From assembly GCA_963281255.1 (NCBI GenBank), contig OY725505.1:2604001-2668000 (forward strand): 64,000 nucleotides of DNA, written 5' to 3'. Shown here in pieces: positions 15,216 through 42,950 of this stretch. How positions within the stretch are numbered: position 1 is the first letter of the stretch; every line of letters starts with the position of its first letter. The notes beneath the pieces were generated by a model. The model was not told the origin of the DNA and ran no database searches. It saw only the letters and a program-made list of their open reading frames with translations. The translations under genes were made by a program, and so were the position numbers. This DNA comes from Aphrocallistes beatrix. Its lineage: Eukaryota; Porifera; Hexactinellida; Sceptrulophora; Aphrocallistidae.

Positions 15216-15279
15216 ATTGCTGAAACCGAACCGACCTGTATATTGGGGCGTAGCTTCCTCAAGAGATTTGGTACAATTG

Positions 15280-21426: not shown

Positions 21427-22566
21427 ATGACTTTAGCTGATAATTTACATTTATTTAGAAAGATTTCTGACACGATTACAATTTTCACAGCTTTGTTGAC
21501 ATTCACTCTTCTTGTTGGTTGGATTATATACTTCATTAGAGAATGCTGGAGACTCCACAAAGAGTACAAAACATGTAAACAAACACCTCTTCTACATCCA
21601 CTCTACTCAGGTGTTCAATATCTTTCTCAACAACGGAAGCTATACAACCTTAAAACACACATCGTTAAATACGTCTTAATGATCGTGTGTAGTTCCGTTG
21701 AAGTTTCTGTGATTATTTGCACCTTACTTAGCAGTTTAAGCAAATCAATCCTAAAAATACATTTTAATATTACCAACACGCAAAAAGAAATTTTTCCTCT
21801 TAATATTACTCAGAGATCGTCACTAACCTATTATAAATATCTATTCTTCATTCCAATGCAGAGCCTTTCTGTTTTGTTGCCCACACTGCTCTTAACTCTA
21901 ATTTCAATCCTATCCCGTTATCTCGCTGCCAGGTACCTTAACCATCCTTTCAGACGAACTCTCATCAAATACATTATCTGGTGTAGTGTGCAATGCTTAC
22001 TAACTGCACTGTGTTCTACAGTATATACTTGGCTCTTGATGGTTTTAGTTTTTCCTTCAATCGGTTTAATCAATTGGATTCTGCTATTGCGAGATACGTC
22101 ATTACTGTCTCGAGTACTCAGGTCCAATCTAAGAGAAATCCAATTCCATTCTAACAACAGAATACTTTACCATAACCAATTATCAGCATACAAATTCTAT
22201 CGCATATTCAGGATTGCACTACTTATATCAATGTTCCTAATCATTCTCAGTATATCAGGATATGTTGTCAGTAAACTATTGGAAGTTTTATTCTTCGCAA
22301 ATAACAAATTAGAATTACACCACAATGTAATTATTGCGCCGTTTCTAAGAAGAGATAGACAAGACTTATTTGAAAATATAACGACTATAATGCTTTTTGT
22401 TTGGGAGTTTTGTATATTTATTTATCTAAATTTGACTAGTATACCTCTATGCTGCATCAGCTTTGCTCCGGTTATTGTCAGATGTGTGAAGAGATGTAGA
22501 GAGAAAGAGGACCAGTATCGATACAACTATGAGAAGTTAGAACCACTCATAAGGAAATACCTCTGA
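21427..22566 (+). CDS. Seven-transmembrane family protein, member 1
   Basis: 379 residues, single exon. Hydrophobic segments at about 17-37, 81-103, 138-162, 181-202, 203-222, 261-283 and 320-350 give seven membrane passes. The loops predicted inside are strongly basic (38-80, 163-180, 223-260) and end in a charged tail (RCREKEDQYRYNYEKLEPLI). The loops predicted outside carry N-glycosylation sequons (N114, N126, N317). That predicts N-out/C-in topology, as in GPCRs, but no DRY, NPxxY or other class-defining motif was found, so receptor identity is inference. Residues ~160-263 are nearly identical at DNA level to the other members, while the N-terminus and outer loops differ. An AATAAA follows at 22714. 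Convergent with member 2. Confidence 0.8.
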   Translation: MTLADNLHLFRKISDTITIFTALLTFTLLVGWIIYFIRECWRLHKEYKTCKQTPLLHPLYSGVQYLSQQRKLYNLKTHIVKYVLMIVCSSVEVSVIICTLLSSLSKSILKIHFNITNTQKEIFPLNITQRSSLTYYKYLFFIPMQSLSVLLPTLLLTLISILSRYLAARYLNHPFRRTLIKYIIWCSVQCLLTALCSTVYTWLLMVLVFPSIGLINWILLLRDTSLLSRVLRSNLREIQFHSNNRILYHNQLSAYKFYRIFRIALLISMFLIILSISGYVVSKLLEVLFFANNKLELHHNVIIAPFLRRDRQDLFENITTIMLFVWEFCIFIYLNLTSIPLCCISFAPVIVRCVKRCREKEDQYRYNYEKLEPLIRKYL

Positions 22567-23427
22567 AATTTAGAGAAGATAGAAATTGTTTGTTCAACAA
22601 GTATTAATCAATTACTTTACTCAAATATTTTGAAGAATAATCTTAAGTTCCTTTTTTTAAACATAATTCTCTGATCAGTATGCATTTTAGTTAATTATAC
22701 TGCATTTCTTGTCTCAATAAACTATTCTTTCTCCATTTGATTAACTTGCAATTTTTTCATTGAAAATAGACGTGTGTTACATCAAGTGTCTTAATTAGAC
22801 ATAAGTTTACGCTAGAATTTTCCGAGAATACCAAAAGGAGTATTCTGCAAAATATTCAGTGGTGATTAGACTGACATATACACTAATCAACTAATAATAT
22901 ATCTTCAATGCGTCACGAATAAGGATATTTTATCGCAAAATATATGAATACCATCAGTTTCATGCACCCTACGTCGGCATTTTACTTGGTCCGATCATGA
23001 GAGGCTAGAAATGAGCGTAGCGAGCTTCCAAATGAAAGGTCCTTGGGTAAATTAGACCTTCGATGTTAATAAATTAGTTTTTAGCAAATTTAGCAATATC
23101 ATATTTCACACCTACAATATATCATTAATTGAATGAATATACTCAATGGGACATAGCCTATTAGGCCAAAGAACCACTAAATATCATAAATTAACCGAAA
23201 ACTATGGATACGAGAAAATAGAAAGTAGAGAGGTATTAGTTTATTTATTGTGTACATTAAAATGAGAGAGATAAGGAAAGCAGATAAATCAACTAAAATA
23301 CACTATTGTGTAGGGAAGTACTTAGAAGGAACTTGGAAGTATTTTTCAACACTATTGAGCAATATACTACATAACTAAATTGCTTATTAATACTTGTAGA
23401 ACAAACAATTTCTACTTTCTCCGAACT
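22567..23427. other. Spacer between convergent 7TM genes 1 and 2
   Basis: Holds the 3' UTR of member 1 (TCAATAAACTATTC at ~22712) and the likely 3' flank of member 2 on the other strand. No gene. Confidence 0.5.
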
Positions 23428-24540
23428 TTAGAGGTATTTCCTTATGAGTGGTTCTAACTTCTCATAGTTGTATCGATACTGATCCTCTTTCTCTCTACAT
23501 CTCTTCACACATCTGACAATAACCGGAGTAATTGTAATGCAGCATAAAGGTAAACAAGTCAAAATTAGATAGATAAGCACAAAAAAATCATCAACGAATA
23601 AAATTACATATTTTATTATTTCTTTATTATTTATTCGTAGAAATAGCGGGAAAATCACACTGTGATGTAATTCTATTTTGCAGAAGTCGAAAAGTATAAT
23701 CCTAGATAGACCAGCAAAATATCCTGATACAGAAAAAAAGAAAAATAACATGGATATAATCAGTACAATCCTGAATATGCGATAGAATTTGTATGCTGAT
23801 AATTGGTTATGGTAAAGTATTCTGTTGTTAGAATGGAATTGGATTTCTCTTAGATTAGACCTGAGTACTCGAGACAGTAATGACGTATCTCGCAATAGCA
23901 GAATCCAATTGATTAAACCGATTAAAGGAACAACTAAAACCATCAAGAGCCAAGTATATACTGTAGAACACAGTGCAGTTAGTAAGCATTGCACACTACA
24001 CCAGATAATGTATTTGATGAGAGTTCGCCTGAAAGGATGGTTAAGGTACCTGGCAGCGAGATAACGGGATAGGATTGAAATTAGAGTTGAGATCAATGTA
24101 AATTGCAAAGCAGGAATATTTTTAATTGGAATAATGAATTGATATATGTCATAGCCCTCAGTTTTGCAATGCAAATTTCCGACCTGTATTTCGGTACTAT
24201 TAGAGATTACGGGTAAGTCTGATATAATTATGTTACTCAGTAACGTGGTTAGAATACCTACAACTTCAACGGAACTACACACGATCATTAAGACGTATTT
24301 TGTGATCTGTGTTTTAAGGTTGTATAGTTTCCGTTGTTGAGAAAGATATTGAACATCTGAGTAGAGGGGATGTAGAAGAGGTGTTTGTTCACATATTTTG
24401 TGTTCTTTATAGCATCTCCAGCACTTCCTAATGTAGTAAACTATCCAACCAACTAGAAGAGAGAAAGTCAGAGGAAATATGAAATATAAACTGATGTTAG
24501 AAACTTTCTTAAATAAACGGAATTGATCAAATAAATTCAT
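23428..24540 (-). CDS. Seven-transmembrane family protein, member 2
   Basis: 370 residues from the ATG at 24540. An 11-codon upstream extension begins with GTG and is rejected. It has the same seven-segment plan as member 1 and the same C-terminal tail. Outer loop 1 differs completely (one sequon, SNST) and outer loop 3 differs. The central DNA block (~23770-24080) is almost identical to member 1, including silent sites. TATATA boxes lie at ~24583-24602. Tail to tail with member 1. Confidence 0.8.
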   Translation of the reverse strand: MNLFDQFRLFKKVSNISLYFIFPLTFSLLVGWIVYYIRKCWRCYKEHKICEQTPLLHPLYSDVQYLSQQRKLYNLKTQITKYVLMIVCSSVEVVGILTTLLSNIIISDLPVISNSTEIQVGNLHCKTEGYDIYQFIIPIKNIPALQFTLISTLISILSRYLAARYLNHPFRRTLIKYIIWCSVQCLLTALCSTVYTWLLMVLVVPLIGLINWILLLRDTSLLSRVLRSNLREIQFHSNNRILYHNQLSAYKFYRIFRIVLIISMLFFFFSVSGYFAGLSRIILFDFCKIELHHSVIFPLFLRINNKEIIKYVILFVDDFFVLIYLILTCLPLCCITITPVIVRCVKRCREKEDQYRYNYEKLEPLIRKYL

Positions 24541-25432
24541 GATGATTGAATTGAAGTATGTGTAAAATGACACAGAACTGTCTATATATACAATATATAC
24601 TATGTAGTAAAAGAAGGATATATTACGAAATAAATACTTGTAATTATCAAATCTAAAATCATTGTTGGGGACTAAATTGAACAGTTCATGCTACACCTCA
24701 TCGAAAATTGATTATGTTGACGCATCAACATGTGGAAACGATGTACGTATGCTTAGCATATTCGATTGGGGTATATTGAATGTTGCATATGTGTAAGTTA
24801 TGGATGAACAATTTACTGATGGTAAGGTCTGCTTCATGGAGAGTTAACCATGAGCTCAGCTTGGATCTTTGGAATGCTGTAATTCAAAGTTCAATGCAAA
24901 TAGAACAAGTACTCAGGATATTTGAGAGATGAACTTACTCCCTTTCCTTCTCAAGGAAAAGCATACTTAGAAATATAACAAAGGAGTTACAACTATCTTT
25001 GCCACAAAACACAAATACTTGTCACATTATTAAGTTGCAAAATACGCGCGTGGATTTCAGTAAATCGGATATTTAAAACAATTAAACGGAACAAGTACGA
25101 GAAGATACAATTTTAGGGATTTTCTTTAAAATTATAAACTACGTATTTGGATGTTTGTTATTACGCTGTAGCTATTGACACCGACCATGGGTATCAGTAG
25201 CTTCAGCTTCATCCTTGCTGTTAAGAGATAATAGATAATATTTAATTTGTATGATTTTAAGATTTTCCCAGATAGGGATTGATGCTACAATAATATGTAA
25301 GTAAAATTTGAGTAAATAGTTTTGCAAGCAAGCTTTGGAGAAATAATCTAAAAATTAAATACAATAAGTAACGAAAAGATTAGTATTCATTATCGAAGGT
25401 TGATGACAGAAATGGAGTGAATCTAACTACTC
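24541..25432. other. Spacer, no gene recognised
   Basis: Promoter side of 7TM member 2 and 3' side of the coiled-coil gene 1. AT-rich, with no repeat family member recognised. Confidence 0.45.
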
Positions 25433-26287
25433 CTAAGTGTAGTCACTGTAGTAGTTATTCTTCTCCTTATAAGGTTCGTGGTAAGGAGTTCGTTTAGATC
25501 TTCTACTTCTGTAATAATCTCTAGAAGATCTACTCCTCCATTGCGATTCGTTGTAGTTATAGCCTGAGTAATCTCTCTCTGTAGGAGGGTATCTTCTTGA
25601 TCCTCTGAAACCTCTACGCGATTCGTTATTATAGTTTATTTTTTGGTATCTCTCTGGATAAGATCCCCTTTTGCTAGGGTTTCTAAACTTTCCAGTTTGA
25701 AAAGATTTTTCTCGTTCTTCATAGCGATATCCGAATAAATGCTCACTCGTCACACTACCCTCATTATCCCTAACCCTTTCTCCCCAATTTCCACCGTTAT
25801 TATCTTCATCATCTCCAGTTTCATTATAGCTAGCTTCGTCATCAAAATGTGCACTAGCACTGTAACTGTCATGAATAACCGCGTTTTCATTCGTCTCGTT
25901 CACTTTTACAATCTCAATAGCATTGATAAATGTTCTGAAATGATAATCACAATACTGTCCCCAATCTATTTTAATCTCAAAATCAGGTGGAGCATCACAT
26001 TCTAAACTGAGTTTGTCGATTCCCGTCTGGATTTCATCTAGAATTTTCCGTTGAATGTCAACTAAATTATTCTGTCCCAGTTCTTCAGTTTTAAACTTGA
26101 GAGTATTCAGTTCGGAGACATCATTCTGTTTCTGCTTGCAAACATTGTTGTATTCAGTTTTTAGGCTAGCAATATTCGCAATCAATTCTGCTTTTTTTTC
26201 GGTCAAGCTTTGAATAAACGAATCGATTTCTCTGTCAATTTCCTCTGTAGCTATTTCAAAAATGTTCCTAACAACAGGAGTGGCCAT
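25433..26287 (-). CDS. Coiled-coil family protein 1 with Arg/Tyr-rich tail
   Basis: 284 residues from the ATG at 26287 (MATPVVRN); the longer frame upstream starts with a non-ATG. Residues ~8-95 form an antiparallel-looking coiled coil (EIDREIDSFIQSL, KKAELIANIASL, NNLVDIQRKILDEI) like the one preceding NHL propellers in this kind of genome. Then comes a conserved IKIDWGQ stretch, an acidic linker (~150-200) and a basic low-complexity tail rich in R, Y, S and N (RGFRGSRRYP, YNYNESQWR). No RING, B-box or NHL follows. The acidic-then-basic design suggests a scaffold or RNA-associated protein, which is inference. Paralogues: 31152, 38926, 44209. Confidence 0.75.
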   Translation of the reverse strand: MATPVVRNIFEIATEEIDREIDSFIQSLTEKKAELIANIASLKTEYNNVCKQKQNDVSELNTLKFKTEELGQNNLVDIQRKILDEIQTGIDKLSLECDAPPDFEIKIDWGQYCDYHFRTFINAIEIVKVNETNENAVIHDSYSASAHFDDEASYNETGDDEDNNGGNWGERVRDNEGSVTSEHLFGYRYEEREKSFQTGKFRNPSKRGSYPERYQKINYNNESRRGFRGSRRYPPTERDYSGYNYNESQWRSRSSRDYYRSRRSKRTPYHEPYKEKNNYYSDYT

Positions 26288-26606
26288 TGTAGTGTTTCCC
26301 GATTTAACGTGCTTAGTTTGCCAAATAAGGTTTGCTGTTAAATAACGAAGTTTAACGGAATAAATATCACAAAAAAGCAAAATTAACGCTCATTACAATA
26401 ATCCTGAGGGAAACACTGAATTTAGGAGAGAACACACTCCTGGTGATCACGATCAAGAATACCATTTGATACCACTGCCATAGTTAATCTTACTTAGTTA
26501 TTGGGAATTATTTCAATTCCTCAAAACGAATGAAAACTATAAATATAATATATATGATATGATATCCCCATCAAACTAAGAATTATTTGAGTATATTTTC
26601 AAATAG

Positions 26607-26908
26607 AAATTTAATAGGTTAAAAATATAATGCCTCTGGATGTGCTAATTAAATGAAGGCACCGGACATGATAGTTGTTTAAGACAGGTTTCATAAATGT
26701 TTTCTTTCAACCGTAGAATGTCCAGTGGGGACACAGTGTCCCCGATATCGCGGATGTCTCCCAGGCATTTTCTATGGCACTGAAGCCATATAAATGCTGG
26801 GCATTCTACAGTTAAATAAAACCTGAAACCTGTCTTAAACAACTTCAGCCTGGAGCCTTCATTTGACCAGCGCATCCACAAGCATTATATTTTCAACTTA
26901 TTAAATTC
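26607..26908. mobile_element. ~300 bp near-perfect foldback element
   Basis: The two halves are complements over ~130 bp each: AATTTAATAGGTT on the left and AACTTATTAAATT on the right, then ATATAATGC, TGGATGYGCT, AATGAAGGC and GTTTAAGACAGGTTTCA. The centre holds a second small hairpin (GGGGACACAGTGTCCCC). A 78-codon frame inside is a by-product. Confidence 0.75.
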
Positions 26909-26954
26909 GGTTCACACAGGTGTAAAACACCAATATACATATATGCATATTAAA

Positions 26955-27100
26955 TTATAATTTTGACTGCAAAATAGAATCATATCACAATATGATTTTT
27001 TCATTGTTTTTAGTAATTAATGGTAGAGAAAGACTCAATACTGTATCACCATTGTTCCAGTTATTGTCAAATTTGTGAAGGGATTTAGAAAGGAAGTTTA
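26955..27100 (+). pseudogene. 7TM family scrap (TM7 region)
   Basis: TGCAAAATAGAATCATATCA, then GTTTTTAGTAATTAATGG and CCAGTTATTGTCAAATTTGT, match the last quarter of the 7TM genes with deletions. Not translatable. Confidence 0.7.
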
Positions 27101-27440
27101 GTCATATTAAATATATCCCTTCATGTGAAGGTATTTAGTCAACAACTGCATTATACGTATGTATGATCAGCACCCAATATCCTGTTGAATATTCTCAAGT
27201 TCTCTTGAAACAACTTATCTCGTAAACTGATGGATTGATAAGACGGTTGATGTAATGAATACACGTCCTTTTCAACTATAATATTTGCAATATAATCAAA
27301 TGAAGATTGAATTAGTTTATTCATACATTTAAAAGAAAAAGATAAGAAAAGCAATGAAATCAGAATAAAATACATTATTGAGCAGGGAATTATACTTAAA
27401 GCAGGAATTGATTATTAGAACAGATAAGTTCAGCTTCAAG

Positions 27441-27912
27441 TCAGAGGTATTTCCTTATGAGTGGTTCTAACTTCTCATAGCTGTATCGGTACTGATCCTC
27501 TTTCTCTCTACATCTCTTCACACATTTGACAATAACTGGAGCAATGCTGATAAAGTACAAATGTACATACAAGTCAAATTTAGATAAATAAGAGAAACAA
27601 AAGCACATATTTAATTCTTCCTCTGCCATTCAAAAATCATACTGTGATGTGATATCTTGCAGGAGTCAAAAATTATAATTTTGAATATTCCAACGACGAA
27701 GTATCCTGATATACTGAGAATGATTAATAGTATAGATATAAGTAGGACATATCTAAATATACGATAGAATTTGTATGCTGATGATTGGTTATGGGAGAGT
27801 ATTCTGTTGCTAGAGTGGAGTTGGAATTCTCTTAGGTTGGACCTGAGTACACGAGGCAGTGATGACGTATCTCTCACTAGTAGAATCTATTTGATTGAAC
27901 CAATTAAAGGGC
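27441..27912 (-). pseudogene. 7TM family pseudogene, C-terminal half only
   Basis: Starts abruptly in the TM5 region (ATAGATTCTACTAGTGAGAG on the minus strand) and keeps TM6, TM7 and the tail. A ~24 bp deletion before TM7 shifts the frame (pieces 27611-27877 and 27441-27629). The 5' half is replaced by an R2-like end (~27915-27990). Its 3' flank is the normal 7TM 3' flank. Confidence 0.8.
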
Positions 27913-28446
27913 CAGAATTGGTTATTACGCAAACGAAGCGGACTTGTAGGAATTTTTCATGGTTCAGTACAAAAAATAATTATAATGATATGTAGACCAA
28001 TTAATCAATTATCAGGCTTTTATAAAGCTATTATTTGATCAGTAAAATTGAAAAAAAATTAAAAAATCAAACATGTTACGTAGTAGATGAATAGTCACAT
28101 TACTCGACCAAACGATAGGAAATATAATTAATACGAATTTTTCTCCAAATATGGATGATAGAAGAGAGGAGAGTATGACTTAGGCGGACACAACTGCCGC
28201 GTAAACTGTGCATGGCGGAAGCAGCATGTATATTATTAATAAAATTCTTTTCTCATAATGTCATATGTTAACAAAATAAATTTTCGATCAGGTGTATTAT
28301 GTACTAGTAATATATATTATTCAAACATCATCAAAAATTGAATAATACAATAAAATTCCCTGTGTAATCGATTCTTTATTGTATATGAATGTCTATATAC
28401 TATAAGTATATGTTATTACAGTTGTATATTACTCAAACAATTCATT
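27913..28446. repeat. R2 end fragment and duplicated 7TM upstream flank
   Basis: 27915-27990 is the tail of R2 (ACGCAAACGAAGCGGACTTG, then the ATTTTTCATGG stretch). 28000-28446 is collinear with 32480-32899 upstream of the 32900 gene (ATTATTTGATCAGTAAAATTG, GCAGCATGTATATTATTAAT), ending in a TATATACTATAAG block ~50 bases before the ATG. Confidence 0.65.
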
Positions 28447-29574
28447 ATGAATTCAACGGAAGAAAGATATTTGCTGAAAAAGATTCCTCTCATTTTCATA
28501 TGTGTAACAATTATATTAACTGTATCCGTTTTAGCTGGTTGGATAATATACTTCATTAGAGAATGCTGGAGACTCCACAAAGAGTACAAAACATGTAAAC
28601 AAACACCTCTTCTACATCCCCTCTACTCAGATGTTCAATATCTTTCTCAGCAACGGAAACTATACAACCTTAAAACACACATCGTTAAATACGTCTCAAT
28701 GATCTTGTGTAGCTCTGTTGAGGTGGCTGTGATTATTAGCCAGCTATTTAGTAGCTTAATCATGTCAGACTTCCACATAAATTCAAGTACTACAGATACA
28801 GAAATTGGAGCATTGCATTGCACTACTCATGGATCGTTTATACAGTATTATAAACATCCATTCATAATCCCAGTGCAAAATGTTCCTGCATTGCTGTCGC
28901 TCATGCTCTTAACTCTAATTTCAATCCTATCCCGTTATCTCGCTGCCAGGTATCTTAACCATCCTTTCAGACGAACTCTCATCAAATACATTATCTGGTG
29001 TAGTGTGCAATGCTTGCTAACTGCACTGTGTTCTACAGTATATACTTGGCTCTTGATGGTTTTAGTTGTTCCTTTAATCGGTTCAATCAATTGGATTCTG
29101 CTATTGCGAGATACGTCATTACTGTCTCGAGTACTCAGGTCCAATCTAAGAGAAATCCAATTCCATTCTAACAACAGAATACTCTACAATAACTAATTAT
29201 CAGCATACAAATTCTATCGCATATTCAGATATGTCCTACTTGTATCTATGTTGCTAATCATTCTCGCTATGTCAGGATACTTCGTCACTAGACTATTCAA
29301 AATTCTAGTTTTTGACTTCTGCAAAATAGAATTACATCACAAAACGATATTTCCATTGTTTTTACAAATTAATGGCAAAAATAGAATCAAAAATGTATTT
29401 TTGTTTGCAGACGAACTTGTTTCTCTAATTTATCTAAATTTGACTAGTATACCTCTGTACTGCATCAGCATTGCTCCAGTTATTGTCAAATGTGTGAAGA
29501 GATGTAGAGAGAAAGAGGATCAGTACCGATACAGCTATGAGAAGTTAAAACCACTCATAAGGAAATACCCCTGA
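28447..29574 (+). pseudogene. Seven-transmembrane family member 3, single internal stop
   Basis: Collinear with a 375-residue family member from ATG (MNSTEERY) to TGA, with one in-frame stop at codon 250 (29194-29196) where relatives read CAA (Gln). The lesion is in ICL3, removing TM6-7. Everything else, including the C-terminal tail, is open, though the last residue is Pro instead of Leu. Outer loop 1 has its own sequence with one sequon (NSS). Could be a recent null, an allele or a base-call error. Confidence 0.8.
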
Positions 29575-30236
29575 CTTGAAGCTGAAATTATTTGTTATTA
29601 CTAACCAATTTATTATATATTTCTCTGAGATGTTGATGAATAATTTTAAATTCCTGCTTTAAGTATAATTCCCTGCTCAATAGTGTATTTAAGTTTGATT
29701 TCATTGCTTTTCTTATCTTTTTCTTTTAAATGTAATGAATAAACTAATTCCATCTCAATTTGATTATATTGCAAATATTCTAGTTGAAAAGGACGTGTAT
29801 TACATCAACCGTCTTATCAATCTATCAGTTTACCACATAAATTGTTTCAAGATAACTTGAGAATATTCAAAACAGGATATTGGGTGCTGATAATACCTAC
29901 GTATAATGCAGTTGCAGATTAAATACCTTCACATGAAGGGATAGATTAAATATGAGCAAACTTTGCTTTCATATTCCGTGTGGTTCTCGGAAATTTGTGT
30001 CTATCTAAATTGTTCAAAACGATTCTCTGCTATGAATTAATTTGATAAAATTAAATTTTAAAAAAATTTTAAGATTAGTTATCATATTATACCAGCTATA
30101 TTCAGGTAAAATTTTGTGATTTATTTTAAGCAGACTTTCAAGTGATATTATAGAGTTATGATTTTCGCATAGAATGTAGCTACGGGACCGTTTGATTTGT
30201 AAAATTTAGAATTTTTGAATGGATTTTGTAGGCCCT
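29575..30236. repeat. Duplicated 3' flank of 7TM units
   Basis: Collinear with 34031-34670, 37536-38000 and the minus strand of 41370-41822. Landmarks are GAATAAACTAATTCCATCTC, AGTTGAAAAGGACGTGTATT, GGGATATATTAAATATGAGC and CCGTGTGGTTCTCGG. AATAAA at ~29737 is the probable polyadenylation signal of member 3. Confidence 0.75.
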
Positions 30237-30282
30237 TGGTTATGGGAAGTTAGATCCACTCATAAGGAAATATTTTTGACTT
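30237..30282 (+). pseudogene. 7TM family scrap, last ~14 codons
   Basis: GGTTATGGGAAGTTAGATCC then ACTCATAAGGAAATATTTTT and TGA encode the family tail (KLDPLIRKY). An equivalent scrap is at 34670-34704, so an ancient second 7TM copy lay downstream in the duplicated unit. Confidence 0.65.
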
Positions 30283-31151: not shown

Positions 31152-31847
31152 TTAATGTTCAGCACAGAAGTTTGCCACTACCCAAAGTACAGCCTCGTTT
31201 CCTGTACTCCTGATGTTACCAGCTTCATTATCCAACTCAATGGAATCACTAGCATCGTTCTCCCTATCCTCTGCATCACTAACCCCGTTCTCCCTGTCCT
31301 CATTATTAACAGCATCATTATCCCAGTCTTCGTTATCACTAGAATAGTTAGCCCAATCCTCGGATTCGTTTTCTCTATCTTCGGCATCTTTAACTTCGTT
31401 TTCACTGACCTCAGCATCTTTAGCCTCTTTTTCCCTATCCTCGGCGTCATTTGTCTGGTTCACCTTTACAATCTTTATAATATTCATAATTTCTCCAAAA
31501 CAAGCATCAAATTGCCCCCAATCTATTTTAACCTCAAAATCAGGTGGATTATTTACTTCTAGCATCAGTTTGTCAATTCCTGTCTCAATTTCATCGAGAA
31601 TTTTTCGTTGTATTTCAACTAAATTATTTCGTCCTAATTCTTCAGTTCTGGACTTCAGAATTTTTAGCTCCAAGACATCATTCTGTTTTTGCTCACGAGT
31701 ATGATTATATTCAGTTTCGAGGGAAGCAATACTTGCAATCAATTCTGCTTTCTTAACACCTAAACACTGGATTAAATTATCGATTTTTCTCTCGACTTCC
31801 TCTGTAGCTATTTCAAACTTGTTTCTAGCATCAGCAGTAGTGGCCAT
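31152..31847 (-). CDS. Coiled-coil family protein 2, acidic tail, no basic tail
   Basis: 231 residues from ATG 31847 (MATTADARN). The coiled coil (EEVERKIDNLIQCL, KKAELIASIASLE, NNLVEIQRKILDEI) and DFEVKIDWGQ are as in the family. Next is an acidic stretch of degenerate 10-residue units (DAEDRENE, DNEDWDND). The Arg/Tyr-rich tail of members 1 and 3 is absent; the frame ends in an unrelated-looking VVANFCAEH. So the protein is probably C-terminally truncated and may have lost part of its function. Head to head with 7TM member 4 (32900), with R2 between. Confidence 0.65.
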   Translation of the reverse strand: MATTADARNKFEIATEEVERKIDNLIQCLGVKKAELIASIASLETEYNHTREQKQNDVLELKILKSRTEELGRNNLVEIQRKILDEIETGIDKLMLEVNNPPDFEVKIDWGQFDACFGEIMNIIKIVKVNQTNDAEDREKEAKDAEVSENEVKDAEDRENESEDWANYSSDNEDWDNDAVNNEDRENGVSDAEDRENDASDSIELDNEAGNIRSTGNEAVLWVVANFCAEH

Positions 31848-32455: not shown

Positions 32456-32899
32456 TAATGATATGCGGACTAATCAATCAATTATCAGGCTTTTACAAAG
32501 CTATTATTTGATCAGTAAAATTGCCAAAAAATGCGAAAATCAAGCTTAGTTATTAATAGATGAATAGTCATGTTTAACGACCCAACTGTAAGAATATGAT
32601 TAATACGGATTTTTCTCTAAATATAGATGATGGAAGCCCAAAGTGCGTCTTTGGCAGGCAGATAGTGCCCGCAAGCTGTGCATGCCGCAAGCAAGCATAT
32701 ATATTATTAATAAAAATTCCCTTCTCATAATGTCATCTGTCTACAAAATAAATTCTTGATCAGGTGTATTACTTACTCAAAAATATATTAATAACATTAC
32801 AAAATTCCCCTGTGTAATCTATCCTATATTGCATATCAATGTCTATATATACGTATATGACATTATAGTTGTACATATAATATACTCAGACTCTTCATT

Positions 32900-34030: not shown

Positions 34031-34704
34031 CTTGAAGCTAAAATTATTTGTTATTACTAACCAATTTATTATATATTTCTCTGAGATGTTGATGAATTCA
34101 AATCCCTGCTTAAAGTATAACTCCCTGCTCAATAGTGCATTTTAGTCTGATTTCATTGCTTTTCTTATCTTTTTCATTTAAATGTAATGAATAAACTAAT
34201 TCCATCTCAATTTGATTATATTGCAAATATTCTAGTTGAAAAGGACGTGTATTACATCAACCGTCTTATCAATCTATCAGTTTACCACATAAATTGTTTC
34301 AAGAGAACTTGAGAATATTCAACAGGATATTGGGTGCTGATTATACATACGTATAATGCAGTTGCAGATTAAATACCTTCACATGAAGGGATATATTAAA
34401 TATGAGCAAACTTTGCTTTCATATTCCGTGTGGTTCTCGGAAATTTGTGTCTATCTAAGTTGTTCAAAACAATTCTCTGCTATGAATTAATTTTATAAAA
34501 TTAAATTTTAAAAATTTAAGATTAGTTATCATATATACCAGCTATATTCGGGTAAAATTTTGTGATTTATTTTAAGCAGACTTCCAAGTGATATCATAGA
34601 GTTATGAACGGGACCGTTTGATTTGTAAAATTTAGAATTTTTTGATCGATTTTGTAGGTCCTTGGTTATGAGAAGTTAGATCCACTCATAAGGAAATATC
34701 TTTG
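34031..34704. repeat. Duplicated 3' flank of 7TM unit with C-terminal scrap
   Basis: Same landmarks as 29575-30282. 34670-34704 is a plus-strand relic reading YEKLDPLIRKYL and a stop. Confidence 0.7.
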
Positions 34705-34892
34705 ACTTTGCAGAAGCTAGACATTGTTTATTCTAATTGTATCAATCAATTCAATTTCGATTATTACTCAAGGGTGTTGTTGATTAGCTAACACAATAGA
34801 CTACTTAAGTACTTTTAATGAGTCACGAATGAAGATATTTTCTCACGAATTATGATTAATATATTATTTAAGGATTGTAAATTCTAGAATAA

Positions 34893-35385
34893 CAAGCGCG
34901 CTTCGCTTGCTTGCGCTGCGCAGCTGGCAGGAACTTCGTGTCTGCCAGAGGCGTACTTTGGACGCCTACGGTCACATTGATTAAGTATAAGGTAGATAAC
35001 ATCTCTAAATACGTCTGTCTTACTATTATAATCGACATCACTCGAAAAATTGCCAATTTTGTCAATTATTTCCATTTTTGATGCGTAATGATGACGTCAT
35101 AACAGTGATGAGTCATCATTTTTTAATGAGAGTTTAATCATATTTGTGATATACTTATATACACATTCTAATAAAATTTCAGCCTTGTATCTAAAATGGC
35201 TGAGTTATAGTCAAAAAACTGAAATTTCTAATTATTAAAAAAAAGTGACAATGACGCGTCATAATTCCATGATGAGTCGACATTTTCGTCTGAGGTCAGA
35301 ACTTAGTGGAGCCAGAGGCAAAAGACTCTAACTTTCCAAAAATCAGTTTTCTGTGTTCTTCAATCAATTCGTTACGGATATATAT
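34893..35385 (-). repeat. R1 repeat, copy e
   Basis: Full-length in reverse: GC-rich hairpin end at 34893-34975, two CRE-like sites (one altered to GACGCGTC), and end CAATCAATTCGTTACGGATA at ~35385. Confidence 0.85.
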
Positions 35386-35412
35386 TAGGGTGCTCAAAAA
35401 AATTCAGTTTAA

Positions 35413-35523
35413 CCCGCGGTTGGCTAGGAATGTTGAAAGTGAAAATGAAAGTACATTGAAAGTGAACTGAAAGTGAAAATGGGGTTTTCTCTATTTATAC
35501 TTTTGAGACCTAGCCAGGCGAGG
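35413..35523. mobile_element. piggyBac-like MITE at TTAA
   Basis: 111 bp bounded by TTAA on both sides (35409-35412 and 35524-35527). Ends are CCCGCGGTTGGCTAGG and CCTAGCCAGGCGAGGG (three mismatches). The interior is a cluster of GAAAGTGAAA-type motifs. The duplicated locus at ~38020-38035 lacks it, so it inserted after the duplication. Confidence 0.7.
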
Positions 35524-35530
35524 GTTAATT

Positions 35531-36074
35531 AAATCTTTAGATGCACAATATTCGAATAGTTTACTTTATTCGCAAGATATTGAACATTAAAGTTTCAAGC
35601 AATTTGGAGATGATTTAGTGGTCGCGCAAGGTAGGCTCCCCCTCGTCCAGATTTATAATGGGATTTGCCCGGCTAGGGCCTTGAAGTTAGAAAAGGCGTA
35701 CTTCTGAAAATCTACCGGTTCGGAGATATTGGGGTAAAAACAGTTGGGACCATTAATAATTTCATTAATCATAGTGCGAAGGCTTGTCCTAACTGTTTTC
35801 ACCAATATCTCCGAACCGGTAGATTTTAGACCACTAAAATGTATTATTAGCTGATATAAAACCACCCCAAATAGCTCATAAATAAAGTTATTAGTGTCTT
35901 TGAATATCAGAACGCCTTTTGTAACCTTAAGCCCCTAACCGGACAAATCCCATTATAAATCTGTACGAGGGGGAGCCTACCTTGTGCGACCACTAAATCA
36001 TCAAATTGCTTGAAACTTTTATGGCCAATATCTGGTGATCGAATTAAACTATGAATAGTGTGCATCTAAAGATT
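35531..36074. mobile_element. ~540 bp nested palindromic element, copy 1
   Basis: Outer arms AATCTTTAGATGCACAATAT and its complement. Middle arms are GTGGTCGCGCAAGGTAGGCT and complement. Inner arms are AATCTACCGGTTCGGAGATA and complement around TTTCATTAAT. The whole would fold into one long, interrupted hairpin. A second copy is at 38035-38569 as part of a segmental duplication. Confidence 0.8.
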
Positions 36075-36422
36075 CAAACTTTAGCCCTAATGGCAGAAGT
36101 ATAGATTCCTAAAAACATAAATAGAAAAGTTATTAAAGATTAGAGCCACACTGTGCCACAACTAGGCTACACTCTGGAAGATAAGTTAATGAACATGAAT
36201 GTCTCAGAAGAAAATACCAACCTAACATAGAATTATGATGTTAGTATTTTTGAACATTTCAATTACGAAATGTATCAATAATTGGCTTATCTCATAAAAT
36301 TTATTTTTCAGATCGAAAATAACGTATATACGCTACGCGGCCTACAATAGTTTAGAATATCTAGTCGTAAATAAAAACATAAAATTAGACTTAACTATCG
36401 AAGGGGTTGGAAATATAGCTCT

Positions 36423-36803
36423 TTAAGTGTAGTCATTGTTCTCCTTTTCCTTTTGAAATCCGTAATAAGAGGCATGTTTGTTTCTTTTTCTGCCTCTATT
36501 ATCACCTCCATAAGGTCTAGCCTTCCATTGCGACTCGTCGTAGTTGTATCTTGATTCGTGTCTCCTTGAAGGATTTCTCCTTGGTTCTCTGTAACCTCTA
36601 CTCGATTGGTTATCCCAACAGTGAATATTTCGTGCGCTTTCTAGAGGAAATCCCATCTCGCTATTATCTCTAGATTTTCTTGTGCTAATAGATTCTCTTC
36701 GCTCATTTGGAGCATGTACGAAACGACGGTAACGATAGGATGCTAGTTCATCGTTATCACGAGCCTCGTTTTCCCTACAAAGATATACTAATCGAAATGT
36801 CAT
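36423..36803 (-). pseudogene. Coiled-coil family, tail-only fragment
   Basis: ~115 codons nearly identical to the Arg/Tyr-rich tail of the 38926 gene (FVHAPNERRESISTRKSRDN, YNYDESQWKARPYGG), ending FQKEKENNDYT. The coiled coil and acidic repeats are missing. The sequence upstream of the break (36780-36843) matches 40565-40628, ~0.5 kb upstream of the intact gene's ATG. So an internal deletion removed the 5' part of a once complete duplicate. The apparent ATG is incidental. Confidence 0.8.
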
Positions 36804-36954
36804 AATCTAAGCAAAGGTCTATAAAAGAACTGAAATCAAATTGCCTTTTGAGATATAGAATTTGGACTGAAACTTATTGAATGTCCTACAAAATTGGATT
36901 TATCTAAAAACTAATGTGAGTCGAACAAATTAATCATATCGATTGTGTAAATCT

Positions 36955-37125
36955 TTTACTAATTTTGTTAGACTTTTCAAAATTTTTGAGTTTTTCATTA
37001 ATTTTATTGGTCTTTTCACAAATTTTGTTGGTCTTTTCACAAATTTTGAGTGTTAGAACAAATTTTGAAAGACATTTAATTAAATTTGTTTGTACAATAA
37101 TTAGAACCGATTTTAGTACAGCTAG
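36955..37125. repeat. AT-rich degenerate minisatellite
   Basis: Repeats of TTGGTCTTTTCACAAATTTT, exact twice (37006-37045) and degenerate around it. A related array in the opposite sense is at 40130-40400. Confidence 0.6.
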
Positions 37126-37130
37126 TGCTG

Positions 37131-37530
37131 CTCCTGGTATAGGAGACGCCTTATGATATGAATGTCCAGTGTACGGAAATGATCGCCCTTTTCTAGGAAA
37201 GACCGGGGCATAATTTTTTTCTAGAAAAAGTTTCCTTTTCAATCGAATGACGATTTTATATCGTTCTCATTTTGCGACGTTAGCCCTTTGTTCACATCAA
37301 TCATGTTTGAGGAAAATTGTCCATGCATAAGCAGGTACGAAACGAACTAAGAATTTGGAAGTGAATCTGACAAAAATGTGACATGGGCCATTTTGCTCAG
37401 AAAATGTAACAGAGTTTTTTTCAATAGGACATGAGAGGTAGCTTCCCTCGCTCGAATATAATTGGTTATTATGCAAGCGAAGCGCGCTTGTAGGGAATAT
37501 TCATGGCTCAAGTGCAAACAAATATTTCAG
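37131..37530 (+). repeat. R2 dispersed repeat, copy 2
   Basis: TATAGGAGACGCCTTATGAT to CAAGCGAAGCGCGCTTGTAG and the following GGCTCAAGTGCAAACAAATA. Immediately after it comes the 7TM 3' flank, not a 7TM gene. Confidence 0.75.
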
Positions 37531-37535
37531 CTGTA

Positions 37536-38000
37536 CGTATATAATTTGATTATATTGCAAATATTCTAGTTGAAAAGGACGTGTATTACATCAACCGTCT
37601 TATCAATCCATCAGTTTACGACATAAATTGTTTCAAGAGAACTTGAGAATATTCAACAGGATATTGGGTGCTGTTAATACCTACGTATAATGCAGTTGAG
37701 GATTAAATACCTTCACATGAAGGGATAGATTTAATATGAGCAAACTTTGCTTTCTTATTCCGTGTGGTTCTCGGAAATTTGTGTCTATCTAAGTTGTTCA
37801 AAACGATTCTCTGCTATGAATTAATTTGATAAAATTAAAGTTTTAAAAAAATTTTAAGATTAGTTATCATATTATACTTATACCAGCTATATTCAGGTAA
37901 AATTTTGTGATTTATTTTAAGCAGACTTTCGAGTGATATATATCATATATATTATAGAGCTATGATTTTCACATAGAATGTAGCTACGGGACCGTTTACA
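37536..38000 (+). repeat. Orphan 7TM 3' flank (gene deleted)
   Basis: Collinear with 29760-30190 and 34210-34620 (ATTCTAGTTGAAAAGGACGT onward to GCTACGGGACCGTTT) although no 7TM coding sequence precedes it. R2 abuts the flank, so the promoter and gene were lost between ~37530 and 37540. Confidence 0.7.
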
Positions 38001-38034
38001 AATATATATTAGGGTGCTCCAAAAAATCTTTTTG

Positions 38035-38569
38035 AATCTTTAGATGCACAATATTCGAATAGTTTACTTTGATCGCAAGATATTGACCTTTCAAGCAATT
38101 TAGAGATTATTTAGTGGTCGCGCAAGGTAGGCTCCCCTCGTGCAGATTTATAATGGGATTTGTCCGGCTAGGGCCTTGAAGTTAGAAAAGGCAGACTTCT
38201 GAAAATCTACCGGTTCTGAGATATTGGTGAAAACAGTTGGGACCATTGATAATTTCATTAATTATAGTGCGAAGGCTTGTGCCAACTGTTTTCACCAATA
38301 TCTCAGAACTGGTAGATTTTAGAACACTAAAATGTATTATTAGCTGATATAAACCACCCCAAATAGCTCATAAATAAAGTTATTAGTGTCTTTGAATATC
38401 AGAACGCCTTTTGTAACCTTAAGCCCCTAACCGGAAAAATCCCATTATAAATCTGTACGAGGGGGAGCCTACCTTGTGCGACCACTAAATCATCTCCAAA
38501 TTGCTTGAAACTTTTATGGCCAATATCTGGTGATGGAATTTAACTATGAATAGTGTGCATCTAAAAATT
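38035..38569. mobile_element. ~535 bp nested palindromic element, copy 2
   Basis: Near-identical to 35531-36074, with small indels. Belongs to the segmental duplication that also carries the coiled-coil gene downstream. Confidence 0.8.
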
Positions 38570-38925
38570 CAAACTTTAGCCCTAATGGCAGAAGTATAGA
38601 TTCCTAAAAAACATAAATAGAAAAGTTATTGAAGATTAGAGCCACACTGTGCCACAACTAGGCTACACTATGGAACATAAGTTAATGAACATAAATGTCT
38701 CAGAAGAAAATACCAACCTAACATAGAATTATGATGTTAGTATTTTTGAACATTTCAATTACGAAAAGTATCAATAGTTGGCTTATCTCATAAAATTTAT
38801 TTTTCAGATCGAAAATAATGTGTATACACTACGCGGCCTACAATAGTCTAGATTCTAGAATATCTAGTCGTAAATAAAAACATAAAATTAGACTTAACTA
38901 TCGAAGGTTTTGGAAATATAGCTCT
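38570..38925. other. 3' flank of coiled-coil gene 3
   Basis: Same as 36075-36422: AGCCACACTGTGCCACAACT, then TGATGTTAGTATTTTTGAAC and the stop-proximal AAATATAGCTCTTTAAGTGT. No gene. Confidence 0.6.
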
Positions 38926-40053
38926 TTAAGTGTAGTCATTGTTTTCCTTTTGAAATCCGTAATAAGAAGCATGTTTGTTCCTTTTTCTGCCTCTATTATC
39001 ACCTCCATAAGGTCTATCCTTCCATTGCGACTCATCGTAGTTGTAGCTTGATTCGTGTCTCCTTGAAGGATATCTCCTTGGTTCTCTGTAACCTCTACTC
39101 GATTGGTTATCCCAACAGTGAATATTTCGTGCGCTTTCTGGAGGAAATCCCGTCTCGCTATTATCTCTAGATCTTCTTGTGCTAATAGATTCTCTTCGCT
39201 CATCAGGAGCATGTACGAAACGACGGTAGCGATATGATGCTAGTTCATCGTTATCACGAGCTTCATCAACATCAGGAACAGTTTCCCTATTCTTGTCACT
39301 AGCCTCGTTTTCCCTACCCTTGTTGACACCAGCTTCGCTATCCCACCCAATGATACCTCTAGCTTCATTTTCTCTGTCTCCTGCATCACTAGCTTCGTTT
39401 TCCCTATCCCCAGCATCACTGGCTTCGTTGTCTCTGTCTCCTGCATCACCAACGTCGCTTTCTCTGTCTCCTGCATCACTAAGGTCGTTTTCTCTTTCCT
39501 CTGCATCACTAAGGTCGTTTTCTCTTTCCTCTGCATCACTAGCTTCGTTTTCTCTTTCCTCTGCATCACTAGCTTCGTTTTCCCTATCTTCATCATCACT
39601 AGCTTCGTTTTCCCTATCTTCATCATCACTAGCTTCGTTTTCCCTATCCTCGGCATCACTACCTTGGTTCACCTTTACAATCTTGATAGTATCCATAATT
39701 ACTACAAAATAAGCATAAAATTTTCCCCAATCTATTTTAATGTCAAAATCAGGTGGATTATTTAGTTCCAGCATCAGTTTGTCAATTCCTGTCTGAATTT
39801 CATCGAGGATTCTCCGTTGTATTTCAACTAAATTATTCCTTCCCATTTCTTCAGTTCTGGACTTGAGAATGTTTAGCTCCAAGACATCATTCTGCTTTTG
39901 CTCACGCACATGATTATATTCAGTTTCGAGGGAAGAAATTTTTGCGATTAATTCTCCTTTCTTAACGCCTAAACATTGAATTAAATCATCGATTTTTCTC
40001 TCGACTTCCTCTGTAGCTATTTTAAACACATTTCCAGGATCAGGAGTGGCCAT
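38926..40053 (-). CDS. Coiled-coil family protein 3 with acidic repeats and Arg/Tyr-rich tail
   Basis: 375 residues, ATG 40053 (MATPDPGN). Order: coiled coil (~8-95; EEVERKIDDLIQCL, NNLVEIQRRILDEI), FDIKIDWGKFYAYF (~105), and about a dozen tandem 10-residue acidic units of the form D-A-E/G-D/E-R-E-N-E/D-A/L-S (~135-255). A basic tail (~270-375) has YRYRRFVHAPDE, WDNQSSRGYREPRRYPSRR and YNYDESQWKDR. The DNA repeat unit is 30 bp, so copy-number change keeps frame. The charge pattern (coil, acid block, Arg/Tyr block) is suited to self-association or nucleic-acid contact, but no defined domain supports a specific function. Confidence 0.8.
   Translation of the reverse strand: MATPDPGNVFKIATEEVERKIDDLIQCLGVKKGELIAKISSLETEYNHVREQKQNDVLELNILKSRTEEMGRNNLVEIQRRILDEIQTGIDKLMLELNNPPDFDIKIDWGKFYAYFVVIMDTIKIVKVNQGSDAEDRENEASDDEDRENEASDDEDRENEASDAEERENEASDAEERENDLSDAEERENDLSDAGDRESDVGDAGDRDNEASDAGDRENEASDAGDRENEARGIIGWDSEAGVNKGRENEASDKNRETVPDVDEARDNDELASYRYRRFVHAPDERRESISTRRSRDNSETGFPPESARNIHCWDNQSSRGYREPRRYPSRRHESSYNYDESQWKDRPYGGDNRGRKRNKHASYYGFQKENNDYT
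39363..39660 (-). repeat. 30 bp coding minisatellite
   Basis: Ten or so 30 bp units (plus-strand form GCATCACTAGCTTCGTTTTC then CCTATCCTCG with variants) inside coiled-coil gene 3. Adjacent pairs are identical in places (39571-39630), indicating recent slippage. A shorter, more drifted version is in gene 2 (31260-31450). Confidence 0.85.
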
Positions 40054-40129
40054 TTGATACAGATATCTAAATAATTGTTTGAATTTTTATATTAAAAACC
40101 GCTGGAATTTTCTAATAGTTATAGTCATT

Positions 40130-40400
40130 ATTAAACTAACAAATTTAGTTAAATGTATAACAAAATTTGTGAAATCACTAACAAATCAATTAAAACAAAA
40201 TTGTTGAAACGTCTTACAAAATTAATGAAAAGAACAAAAAAATTAATGAAAACTCTCACAACTTTTTGGAAAGTCTAAAAAAATTATTAAAAAGATTAAA
40301 ATTTATAATAAGACAAAATTAGTGAAAATGCTGACAAAATTAATACGTCTAACAAATCTAATCGTAAATTTAGTGAAATATCTCACGAACTCATTATACA
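40130..40400. repeat. AT-rich degenerate minisatellite
   Basis: Variants of ACAAAATTAATGAAA and ACAAATTTAGT, opposite in sense to 36955-37125. It lies just upstream of coiled-coil gene 3. Confidence 0.55.
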
Positions 40401-40634
40401 AAAACAGAAGACTGATATTTGGTTTGCAACCGTTCATTTTCAGCCTTGATAGATAATATATAGAGATCGAATTCTCGAATATTTTGAGTTTTGAGGTGCG
40501 AAAATTATGTCTTTGCTACTTACTACCTTTCGAGTGCAATAAAATAATCCGTAATCAGAACAAACACATACTAATCGAAAGGTCATCATCTAAGCTAAGG
40601 CCTATAAAAAGAACTGAAATCAAATTGCGATATA

Positions 40635-41164
40635 CAGGGTTGCCGTGGGAATGGGAATCTGTGGGTTTTCCCATGGGTATTCCCATATGGGATGGGAATG
40701 GGAATGACTTTAAGCCTATGGGTATTCCCACATGTGGGTTCTGTGGGTTTTTGTGGGTTTTCTGTGGGTTTTCTTGGGCATGCCTAATTTCCGGGACGGG
40801 ACGGAACCATCAGGTACCTAATTTCCGGGACTGGACGAGTCAAAATGCCTAATCTCCGGTACGGGACAGAAAAGGTACCTAATTTCCGGGACGGGTTAAG
40901 ATGCCTAATTTCCGGGACGGGACGGGTGAAGATACCTAATTCCCGGGACGGGATGCTATCCCGTCCCGGAAATTATGTATCTAGATTTTCCGGGACGGTC
41001 CCGTCCCGTTCTGGAAATTAAGCAAGCTCGTTTTCTTGTGGGTTTCTGTGGTTTTTTTGTGAGGTTTCCTGTGGGTTCTGTGGGTTTTTGTGGGTATTCC
41101 CACAGAAATCCTGTGGGAATGGGATGGGGATGGGTATTGAAATTCCATTCCCACGGCAATCCTG
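40635..41164. mobile_element. hAT-like MITE with nested foldback
   Basis: Ends CAGGGTTGCCGTGGGAATGG and CCATTCCCACGGCAATCCTG (one mismatch). Exact 8 bp duplication GCGATATA (40627-40634 and 41165-41172). The interior is rich in TGTGGGTTTT and GGGTATTCCCA repeats. Foldback copy D is inserted at TTTTCTTG. Without it the MITE is ~270 bp. Confidence 0.92.
40776..41029. mobile_element. GC-rich foldback element, copy D
   Basis: Left end GGGCATGCC; right end drifted to AGCAAGCTC. Six or seven units of CCTAATTTCCGGGACGGGAC and two inverted units. GTTTTCTT(G) on both sides (40768-40776 and 41030-41038) is the target duplication. Confidence 0.85.
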
Positions 41165-41369
41165 GCGATATAACAAATATATAACGAAGATATAACAAAA
41201 CACATTTTTATAATGGATTCGGGTACTCAGATATGTGGTTATACTTAAGTATATGCTGGTAATACATTTCCGGCCCAGGAACTATTTTTGCTTTGTTGTA
41301 AAATTCATCAACTCTACTATTTCATCCATGGTCCAAAATTATTCTAGTGTATACGATAGCCTTTATGTA

Positions 41370-41822
41370 CAGAATTGTTTTAAAAATTGAATTTTATCAA
41401 ATTAATTCATAGCAGAGAATCGCTTTGAACAACTTAGATAGACACAAATTTCCGAGAACCACACGGAATAAGAAAGCAAAGTTTACTCATATTAAATTTA
41501 TCCCTTCATGTGAAGGTATTTAATCAGCAATTGCATTATACGTATGTATAATCAGCACCCAATATCCTGTTGAATATTCTTAAGTTCTCTTGAAGCAATT
41601 TATGTGGTAAGCTTATGGATTGATAAGACGGTTGATGTAACACACGTCCTTTTCAACTAGAATATTTGCAATATAATCAAATTGAGATGGAATTAGTTTA
41701 TTCATTACATTTAAATGAAAAAAATAAGAAAAGCAATGAAATCAGACTAAAATACATTATTGAGCAGGGAATTATACTTAAAGCAGGAATTGATTATTAG
41801 AACAGATAAGTTCAGCTTCAAG
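41370..41822 (-). repeat. 3' flank of 7TM member 5
   Basis: Inverse of the 7TM 3' flank (landmarks CGAGAACCACACGGAATAAG and ACGTCCTTTTCAACTAGAAT). On the minus strand an AATAAAC lies at ~41700, the likely polyadenylation signal. Confidence 0.7.
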
Positions 41823-42950
41823 TTAGAGGTATTTCCTTATGAGTGGTTCTAACTTCTCATAGCTGTATCGGTACTGGTCCTCTTTCTCTCTACATCTCTT
41901 CACACATTTGACAATAACTGGAGCAATGGTGATGCAGTACAGAGGTATACTAGTCAAATTTAGATAAATAAGGTAAACAAATTCCTCAGCAAACAAAAAT
42001 AAATATTTAATTCTTCCTCTTCCATTAATTTCTAAAAACAATGGGAAAAACATTTGGTGATGCAATTCTACTTCGCAGAAGTTAAACATTATAATTTTGA
42101 ATAGTCTAGTGACGAAGTATCCTGACATAGCGAAAATGATTAGCAACATAGATACAAGTAGGACATATCTGAATATGCGATAGAATTTGTATGCTGATAA
42201 TTGGTTATTGTAGAGTATTCTGTTGTTAGAATGGAATTGGATTTCTCTTAGATTGGACCTGAGTACTCGAGACAGTAATGACGTATCTCGCAATAGCAGA
42301 ATCCAATTGATTGAACCGATTAAAGGAAAAACTAAAACCATCAAGAGCCAAGTGTATACTGTAGAACACAGTGCAGTTAGTAAGCATTGCACACTACACC
42401 AGATAATGTATTTGATGAGAGTTCGTCTGAAAGGATGGTTAAGGTACCTGGCAGCGAGATAACGGGATAGGATTGAAATTAGAGTTAAGAGCATGAGAGA
42501 CAGCAATGCAGGGACATTTTGCATTGGTATTACGAATGGATGTTTATAATAAGTTAAAAACCATCCCTGAGGAGTGCAATGCAATTTTCCAATTTGTATA
42601 TCTGTAATATTTGATGATTCGTGAAGATTTGATATGATCATAGTACTGAATAGCGTGCTAATAATCACAGAAACTTCAACGGAACTACACACGATCATTA
42701 AGACGTATTTAACGATGTGTGTTTTAAGGTTGTATAGTTTCCGTTGTTTAGAAAGATATTGAACACCTGAGTAGAGTGGATGTAGGAGAGGTGTTTGTTT
42801 ACATATTTTGTACTCTTTGTAGAGTCTCCAGCATTCTCTAATGAAGTATATTATCCAACCAACAAGAAGAGTGAATGTCAATACAATTGTTACGCCTATA
42901 TAGATAGAAGAAATCTTTTTCAGCAAATGTATTTCTTCCGTTGAATTCAT
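41823..42950 (-). CDS. Seven-transmembrane family protein, member 5
   Basis: 375 residues from ATG 42950 (MNSTEEIH), single exon, complete family plan with basic inner loops and the RCREKEDQYRYSYEKLEPLI tail. Outer loop 1 has a sequon (SSNITD) and is nearly that of member 4; the N-terminus is closer to member 3 (MNSTEE). This mosaic pattern suggests exchange among members. R2 on the minus strand lies ~390 bases upstream, then coiled-coil gene 4 in the same direction. Confidence 0.85.
   Translation of the reverse strand: MNSTEEIHLLKKISSIYIGVTIVLTFTLLVGWIIYFIRECWRLYKEYKICKQTPLLHPLYSGVQYLSKQRKLYNLKTHIVKYVLMIVCSSVEVSVIISTLFSTMIISNLHESSNITDIQIGKLHCTPQGWFLTYYKHPFVIPMQNVPALLSLMLLTLISILSRYLAARYLNHPFRRTLIKYIIWCSVQCLLTALCSTVYTWLLMVLVFPLIGSINWILLLRDTSLLSRVLRSNLREIQFHSNNRILYNNQLSAYKFYRIFRYVLLVSMLLIIFAMSGYFVTRLFKIIMFNFCEVELHHQMFFPLFLEINGRGRIKYLFLFAEEFVYLIYLNLTSIPLYCITIAPVIVKCVKRCREKEDQYRYSYEKLEPLIRKYL

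Follow-up and report, generated by a model that had tools for sequence, protein, structure and literature searches.

One-exon genes in tandem encode a large family of predicted seven-helix membrane proteins, candidate chemoreceptors, with variable outer and near-constant inner parts

The window analysed here is a stretch of 64,000 nucleotides (contig OY725505.1, positions 2,604,001 to 2,668,000), and our subject is a family of seven-transmembrane (7TM) proteins encoded between its positions 21,427 and 42,950. A sequence-only reading of this DNA had described four open copies, a fifth with a single stop and some scraps; all five copies were found where it had placed them, and two of the scraps could be located as relics (Table 1). 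The five full-length copies occupy about 5.6 kb of the 21.5 kb stretch, the remainder of which includes a second tandem family, of coiled-coil proteins. The first copy (21427) is 68–74% identical to the other four full-length copies of the window.

Table 1. Family copies, relics and TATA-box-like elements located in the window
Feature	Position	Strand	Remarks
7TM family member, open, 379 aa	21427..22566	+	both EL1 Cys and EL3 Cys missing
7TM family member, open, 370 aa	23428..24540	-	
Family relic, C-terminal part	26967..27096	+	DNA similarity 79-87% to intact copies
Family relic, C-terminal part	27444..27910	-	split over two frames, internal stops
Family member, full length	28447..29568	+	single TAA after residue 249
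7TM family member, open, 376 aa	32900..34030	+	
7TM family member, open, 375 aa	41823..42950	-	
TATA-box-like element	21378..21385	+	47-49 bp upstream of ATG of copy 21427
TATA-box-like element	24583..24590	-	48-50 bp upstream of ATG of copy 23428
TATA-box-like element	28394..28399	+	53 bp upstream of ATG of copy 28447
TATA-box-like element	32844..32851	+	54-56 bp upstream of ATG of copy 32900
TATA-box-like element	42993..43000	-	48-50 bp upstream of ATG of copy 41823

The genome to which the window belongs (100,537,919 bases in 28 contigs) was searched with the first window copy as the query. At least 100 family matches were obtained, with expectation values (E) from 1e-245 to 1e-4; this is a lower bound, 108 of 179 candidates having been scored, and it excludes a chance origin of the window copies. 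Among the 100 matches listed, 68 are open frames of at least 335 aa with no stop within the match, 4 are near-full with one stop, and the remainder are pieces. The listed matches are spread over at least 15 contigs and form runs, the longest on contig C6 (17 matches), followed by C4 (13), C16 (11), C18 (8), C19, which is the contig of the window (7), C9 (5) and C13 (5). Moreover, a profile built from 40 members scored neighbouring open reading frames (ORFs) that the single-protein search had missed (e.g., L028:5138-6364, E 1.6e-15, and L031:4113-5252, E 1.5e-36). The superfamily is thus larger than the matches counted above, and it may number several hundred genes.

The coiled-coil proteins are encoded by genes interleaved with the 7TM genes (25433-26287, 31152-31847, 36423-36803, 38926-40053 and 44209-45039, all on the minus strand) and carry acidic repeats built from 30-bp units. 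No match to them was found among ORFs of at least 90 aa in loci L009–L039 of the same genome, and their pairing with 7TM genes is so far peculiar to the window cluster. A 298-aa protein (19263-20159, minus strand) adjoins the 7TM cluster; it has hydrophobic segments and a Cys-rich C-terminal part, and gave no Pfam match above the cut-off.

Conservation was assessed in an alignment of 40 members (A1), out of the 68 open frames listed. The loci examined yielded 42 frames of at least 335 aa, from which A1 omits the L019 copy (without a near ATG) and the L026 copy (short after its Met); it also leaves out the stop-bearing window copy and the members on C9, C12, C13, C16 and C20, two on C7 and one on C3. 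The aligned members are 363–389 aa long, apart from one of 333 aa, and share between 19% and 74% identity with the first window copy. Residue numbers given here are alignment columns counted on copy 21427. Fixed residues in A1 are W32 in transmembrane helix 1 (TM1), a YNxKT motif ahead of TM2, Q189, N216, P340 (TM7) and E92 in TM2, the last kept in all 40 members. A [YF]Lxx[RK] motif ends TM3 in 39 of the 40, and a [RD][FY][NGP] step is present in the tail of 37. It should be noted that the distant members have only a few fixed residues in common. Two cysteines are conserved in predicted outer (extracellular) loops (EL), C127 of EL1 in 39/40 members and C293 of EL3 in 37/40, a pattern suggestive of an EL1–EL3 disulfide. 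The members of L032 and L033 have the EL1 cysteine only, the relevant part of EL3 being missing in L033, and copy 21427 has neither.

Helix borders were placed by hand from averaged hydropathy, and since the members are related to one another, they do not amount to 40 independent tests. By a simple hydropathy count, 28 members have seven hydrophobic segments, 10 have eight and 2 have six. Lysine plus arginine was more abundant in the inner than in the outer loops of every member. Glycosylation sequons were about 2.5-fold enriched in the N-terminus, EL1 and EL3 (77, versus 31.1 ± 4.9 in shuffled sequences), while the inner loops held 17 (29.0 ± 5.1 in shuffles) and the helices showed no enrichment. 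Seven hydrophobic segments, basic inner loops and sequons in the outer loops had all been noticed in the sequence-only reading, and all three were borne out, the sequons being enriched solely in the outer segments. The predicted topology is one of seven helices with the N-terminus outside and the C-terminus inside, in which the mean lengths, in residues, are 36 for inner loop (IL) 1, 40 for EL1, 11 for IL2, 1 for EL2, 39 for IL3, 34 for EL3 and 31 for the tail.

This topology bears on the idea that the proteins are insect-type seven-helix ion channels (Gr/Or and Gr-like, or 7TMICs) in a sponge-like animal. The two have seven helices and a similar size (~380 aa here) in common, and both look like large, fast-evolving families of chemoreceptors. 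However, PMC9998090 defines 7TMICs by an intracellular N-terminus, the opposite of what is predicted here in 40/40 members. The insect Gr motif of TM7 (TYhhhhhQF or a variant) is missing from all 40, and neither 7tm_6 nor 7tm_7 was among the Pfam matches. Contradicted by the predicted topology, the insect-type channel is left with a very slight probability.

Promoters were examined in 38 of 41 upstream stretches, that of L010:8884 being cut by the end of the locus and those of L015:8030 and L033:2533 being left out. A TATAWA element begins 26–75 bp ahead of the ATG in 32 of these 38 genes, compared with 2–6 genes per bin in five bins of 50 bp located farther upstream. It is found in near members (26/30) and in distant ones (6/8) alike. 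The reversed pattern is also more frequent at 26–75 bp (9/38 versus 2–3 elsewhere), a rise that is expected in part because TATATA is palindromic. Given that the TATA box places the start of the gene directly ahead of the ATG, the one-exon reading stands, and the possibility that the copies are one exon of a longer gene was rejected. The description of a one-exon, clustered, multi-copy family is therefore upheld by the window copies, the genome matches and the TATA box near the ATG.

We then compared outer and inner parts within four groups, namely the window (5 genes), the C4 clade (11), C6 (9) and C18 (5), where the C4 group takes in L014 (contig C6) and L020 (contig C4, 1.2 Mb off). In the three predicted outer blocks, nonsynonymous divergence (pN) was 0.10–0.43 and its ratio to synonymous divergence (pN/pS) 0.55–0.94, versus 0.01–0.09 and 0.16–0.45, respectively, in the predicted inner blocks. 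The inner blocks are under purifying selection; together with the promoters, this would make it less likely that the copies are not transcribed. In eight close pairs, six of which are sisters on the tree and two of which come from unresolved forks, outer pN/pS exceeded inner pN/pS without exception (pooled 0.69 versus 0.32; Fisher p for nonsynonymous to synonymous counts 1e-5). The variable outer parts first seen in the window copies thus recur in all four groups and all eight pairs.

The same division is visible at silent sites. Codons that conserve the amino acid differed 2.0–3.9 times more often in outer than in inner parts in the four groups (in the window, 0.264 versus 0.067) and 1.9 times more often in the close pairs (0.107 versus 0.057, p 5e-6), while silent variation in the C4 outer blocks EL1 and EL3 was just mildly high. 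Because protein selection alone would not shape silent sites, gene conversion of the inner parts between paralogs is the simplest cause, and conversion among the copies is likely. Such side-specific homogenisation would offer a clean natural case of the outer and inner halves of a receptor evolving apart.

The contrast between the two sides also helps to weigh whether these proteins are receptors at all. A non-receptor membrane family (transporter, channel subunit, sorting or enzyme-like protein) might have seven helices by coincidence and have been expanded in tandem; conserved inner loops would also suit a conserved machine on the inner side, and neither homology nor a usable fold points elsewhere. 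The concentration of variation in the outer blocks of all four groups argues against it, as does the predicted architecture, an odd number of helices with an outside N-terminus being unusual among transporters. We consider such a family distinctly improbable.

With regard to the history of the family, distant places on one contig were given separate labels and the labels were traced on a tree of the 40 members. The 13 groups can be accounted for with 12 changes of locus label, which is the minimum; shuffled labels needed 27.2 on average, and none of 200 shuffles was as low. With label changes at the minimum, the family has grown via local duplication and not by scattering. At least one copy has moved between contigs, since L014 (contig C6) is nested inside the C4 clade, and the deep joins of the tree are unsure because the branches are long. 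The existence of many copies and relics could also be expected of a gene carried by a mobile element and spread by transposition, and an ORF that resembles, by eye, a mariner/Tc1 transposase is flanked by two 7TM genes in the C18 cluster (L024:3686-4711, plus strand). Nevertheless, copies that are not scattered regardless of locus, inner blocks under purifying selection, and adjoining ORFs that vary among loci all speak against it, and we rejected this explanation as having next to no chance of being right.

As to relatives, the claim that the proteins lack the known motifs of G-protein-coupled receptors (GPCRs) held throughout A1, where [DE]RY, NPxxY and [CF]WxP, like the insect Gr motif above, were found in 0/40 members each. 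A very diverged rhodopsin-type (class A) branch with decayed motifs, still chemoreceptor-like, must be considered nonetheless. Class A GPCRs have D2.50 in TM2 and a D/ERY site at the end of TM3. Here, 29/40 members have SRYLAxRY where TM3 ends, with an SRY one letter off D/ERY near that site, and the invariant E92 of TM2 is acidic. Moreover, sponge class A receptors are reported as strongly diverged in the available part of PMC4302439. On the other side, besides the missing motifs, no receptor profile of Pfam was matched by any of the 40 members (E up to 1), the R of SRY is lost in distant members, EL2 is almost nil and, with hand-set borders, the conserved cysteines fall in EL1 and EL3 and not at the top of TM3 and in EL2. 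We judge a class A branch to be rather unlikely.

Several known systems share features with the family, as far as the available parts of the respective papers go. The Rhodopsin-family expansions of the sponge Amphimedon (AqRho-A to AqRho-E; PMC4302439) also have seven helices and form a large expansion separate from the receptors of other animals; they were gathered by Pfam search, whereas the family described here has no receptor match in Pfam and lacks [DE]RY, NPxxY and CWxP. Having begun from a Pfam search, that census would miss any family for which Pfam has no model. The nematode chemosensory receptors (NEMCH; PMC11526382), a large, lineage-limited set of 7TM receptors, are alike in kind; ours differ in that no receptor model of Pfam was matched (E up to 1). 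The GPRch3 and RSF families of choanoflagellates and their relatives (PMC12716839) are also 7TM proteins that are similar to no known class. For GPRch3, whose N- and C-terminal regions are short, homologs have been reported from sponges, and our comparison with this family is one of descriptions and not of sequences; RSF is reported absent from metazoans, and its motif NxLQxxMNxL between TM6 and TM7 occurs in 0/40 members. Among the literature matches listed, no title or abstract opening describes such a family, subscription papers being mostly outside the coverage, and it is not described in the available parts of PMC4302439, PMC12716839, PMC9998090, PMC11526382 and PMC3447736. Pattern matches of alignments A1 and A3 in viral contigs (70 and 22, in a collection of viruses) and of A3 in prokaryote contigs (13) included no relative, a negative that does not extend to other animals.

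The interpretation we favour, giving it somewhat better than an even chance, is that the copies are cell-surface receptors with seven helices, most likely chemoreceptors, in a multigene family that evolves by birth and death. Families of such appearance usually serve chemosensing. The available part of PMC11526382 assigns the same role to them. In these receptors, the long outer loops EL1 (~40 aa) and EL3 (~34 aa) would probably be joined by one disulfide. The putative ligand site, differing among copies, would comprise both loops, the outer halves of TM1, TM2, TM3 and TM7, and TM6. The predicted inner face would be made of IL1 (~36 aa), IL2 (11 aa), IL3 (~39 aa) and a basic tail of ~31 aa with DQYRYNYxKLxPLL; because it is near-constant within a cluster, we propose a single inner signalling partner for all copies, for which a G protein would be our first guess. 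A single exon and a separate TATA-type promoter for each copy would suit the selective expression of single copies, and gene conversion may homogenise the signalling side as the sensing side becomes more diverse.

The sequence-only reading had put forward chemoreceptors or self-recognition receptors on the strength of a clustered one-exon 7TM family with variable outer parts and no recognised class. These features stood, and the self-recognition part gained no positive evidence. As self-recognition or immune receptors, the proteins would use their outer variation to mark individuals or microbes and not for chemical sensing, which agrees with that variation, with the clustering, with the relics and with the signs of exchange among copies. 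However, their outer domains consist of short loops, in which Ig, lectin, scavenger-receptor and other binding domains are lacking, and the variation in the window is between copies, not individuals. This makes self-recognition highly unlikely.

Several observations weigh against the chemoreceptor interpretation or parts of it. The Pfam search of the 40 members returned no receptor family, its best, chance-like match having E 0.028, and the same was true of eight further proteins (distant members and neighbours found by the profile) at E up to 10. No match was found among the chains of PDB, either with a single sequence as the query (E up to 1) or with a profile (E up to 10). Seven helices are visible in an AlphaFold model made from the five window sequences (one truncated at its stop), but the model cannot be used, having a predicted local distance difference test score (pLDDT) of 42.1 and a predicted template modelling score (pTM) of 0.28. 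Class A GPCRs generally have a shorter IL1 than the ~36 aa predicted here. Positive selection was not detected, outer pN/pS being 0.48–0.91 and hence below 1 in all eight close pairs. For the disulfide, the distant L032 and L033 members with the EL1 cysteine only count as contrary cases, and the joint loss at 21427 is one event. As to the TATA box, 4/8 unrelated window ORFs carry one at the same distance, so it marks the start of a gene and not a receptor. Finally, the silent-site division has exceptions, the block from the inner end of TM7 to the tail not being low in C18 (pS 0.58) or C6 (0.29). In a run test on silent sites of the window copies, 6/10 pairs, which overlap, were at or below 84/2000 shuffles and 4/10 were not, and one long unchanged run crosses into the outer TM6–EL3 block. 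Because of this mixed test and this run, regional mutation or codon constraint is a possible cause of the silent pattern.

The family might further represent a new receptor class, unrelated in sequence to the known GPCR classes, with an EL1–EL3 disulfide and almost no EL2, and might serve as the main repertoire for chemicals, food or microbes in an early-branching, perhaps nerve-less animal. We put this forward tentatively, with clearly less than even confidence. Should the source be a sponge or another early-branching animal, the family would be a candidate answer to the question of what such animals sense chemicals with.

The rest of the window holds unrelated genes and repeats. Another tandem family consists of one-exon ORFs of ~300 aa on the plus strand (765-1655, 2953-3777, 9809-10726 and, in pieces, 15757-16515); its long copies are 73–76% alike, and the two of them that were scanned gave no Pfam match above the cut-off. 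Short arrays of a 30–31-bp unit (CCTAATTTCCGGGACGGGACG-like) occur at 3925-4008, 4450-4532, 5613-5740, 40783-40953 and 49321-49402. On the minus strand, exon-like ORFs at 13941-15410 contain NHL repeats (PF01436, E 3.7e-5 and 0.008), and those at 47281-50970 contain an F-box (E 5e-7) and leucine-rich repeats (E 7e-11). The latter probably belong to one spliced gene, which may resemble the ciliary FBXL13/DRC6. Exons of these two kinds are in keeping with an animal genome, for instance that of a sponge. A one-exon ORF of 556 aa (55507-57177, minus strand) matches DUF4259 (E 2.2e-6, above the cut-off) and, slightly under the cut-off, the C-terminal part of GMC oxidoreductases. Amine-oxidase-like exons (PF01593, E 9e-4 and 5e-8) are present at 62616-63497 on the plus strand.

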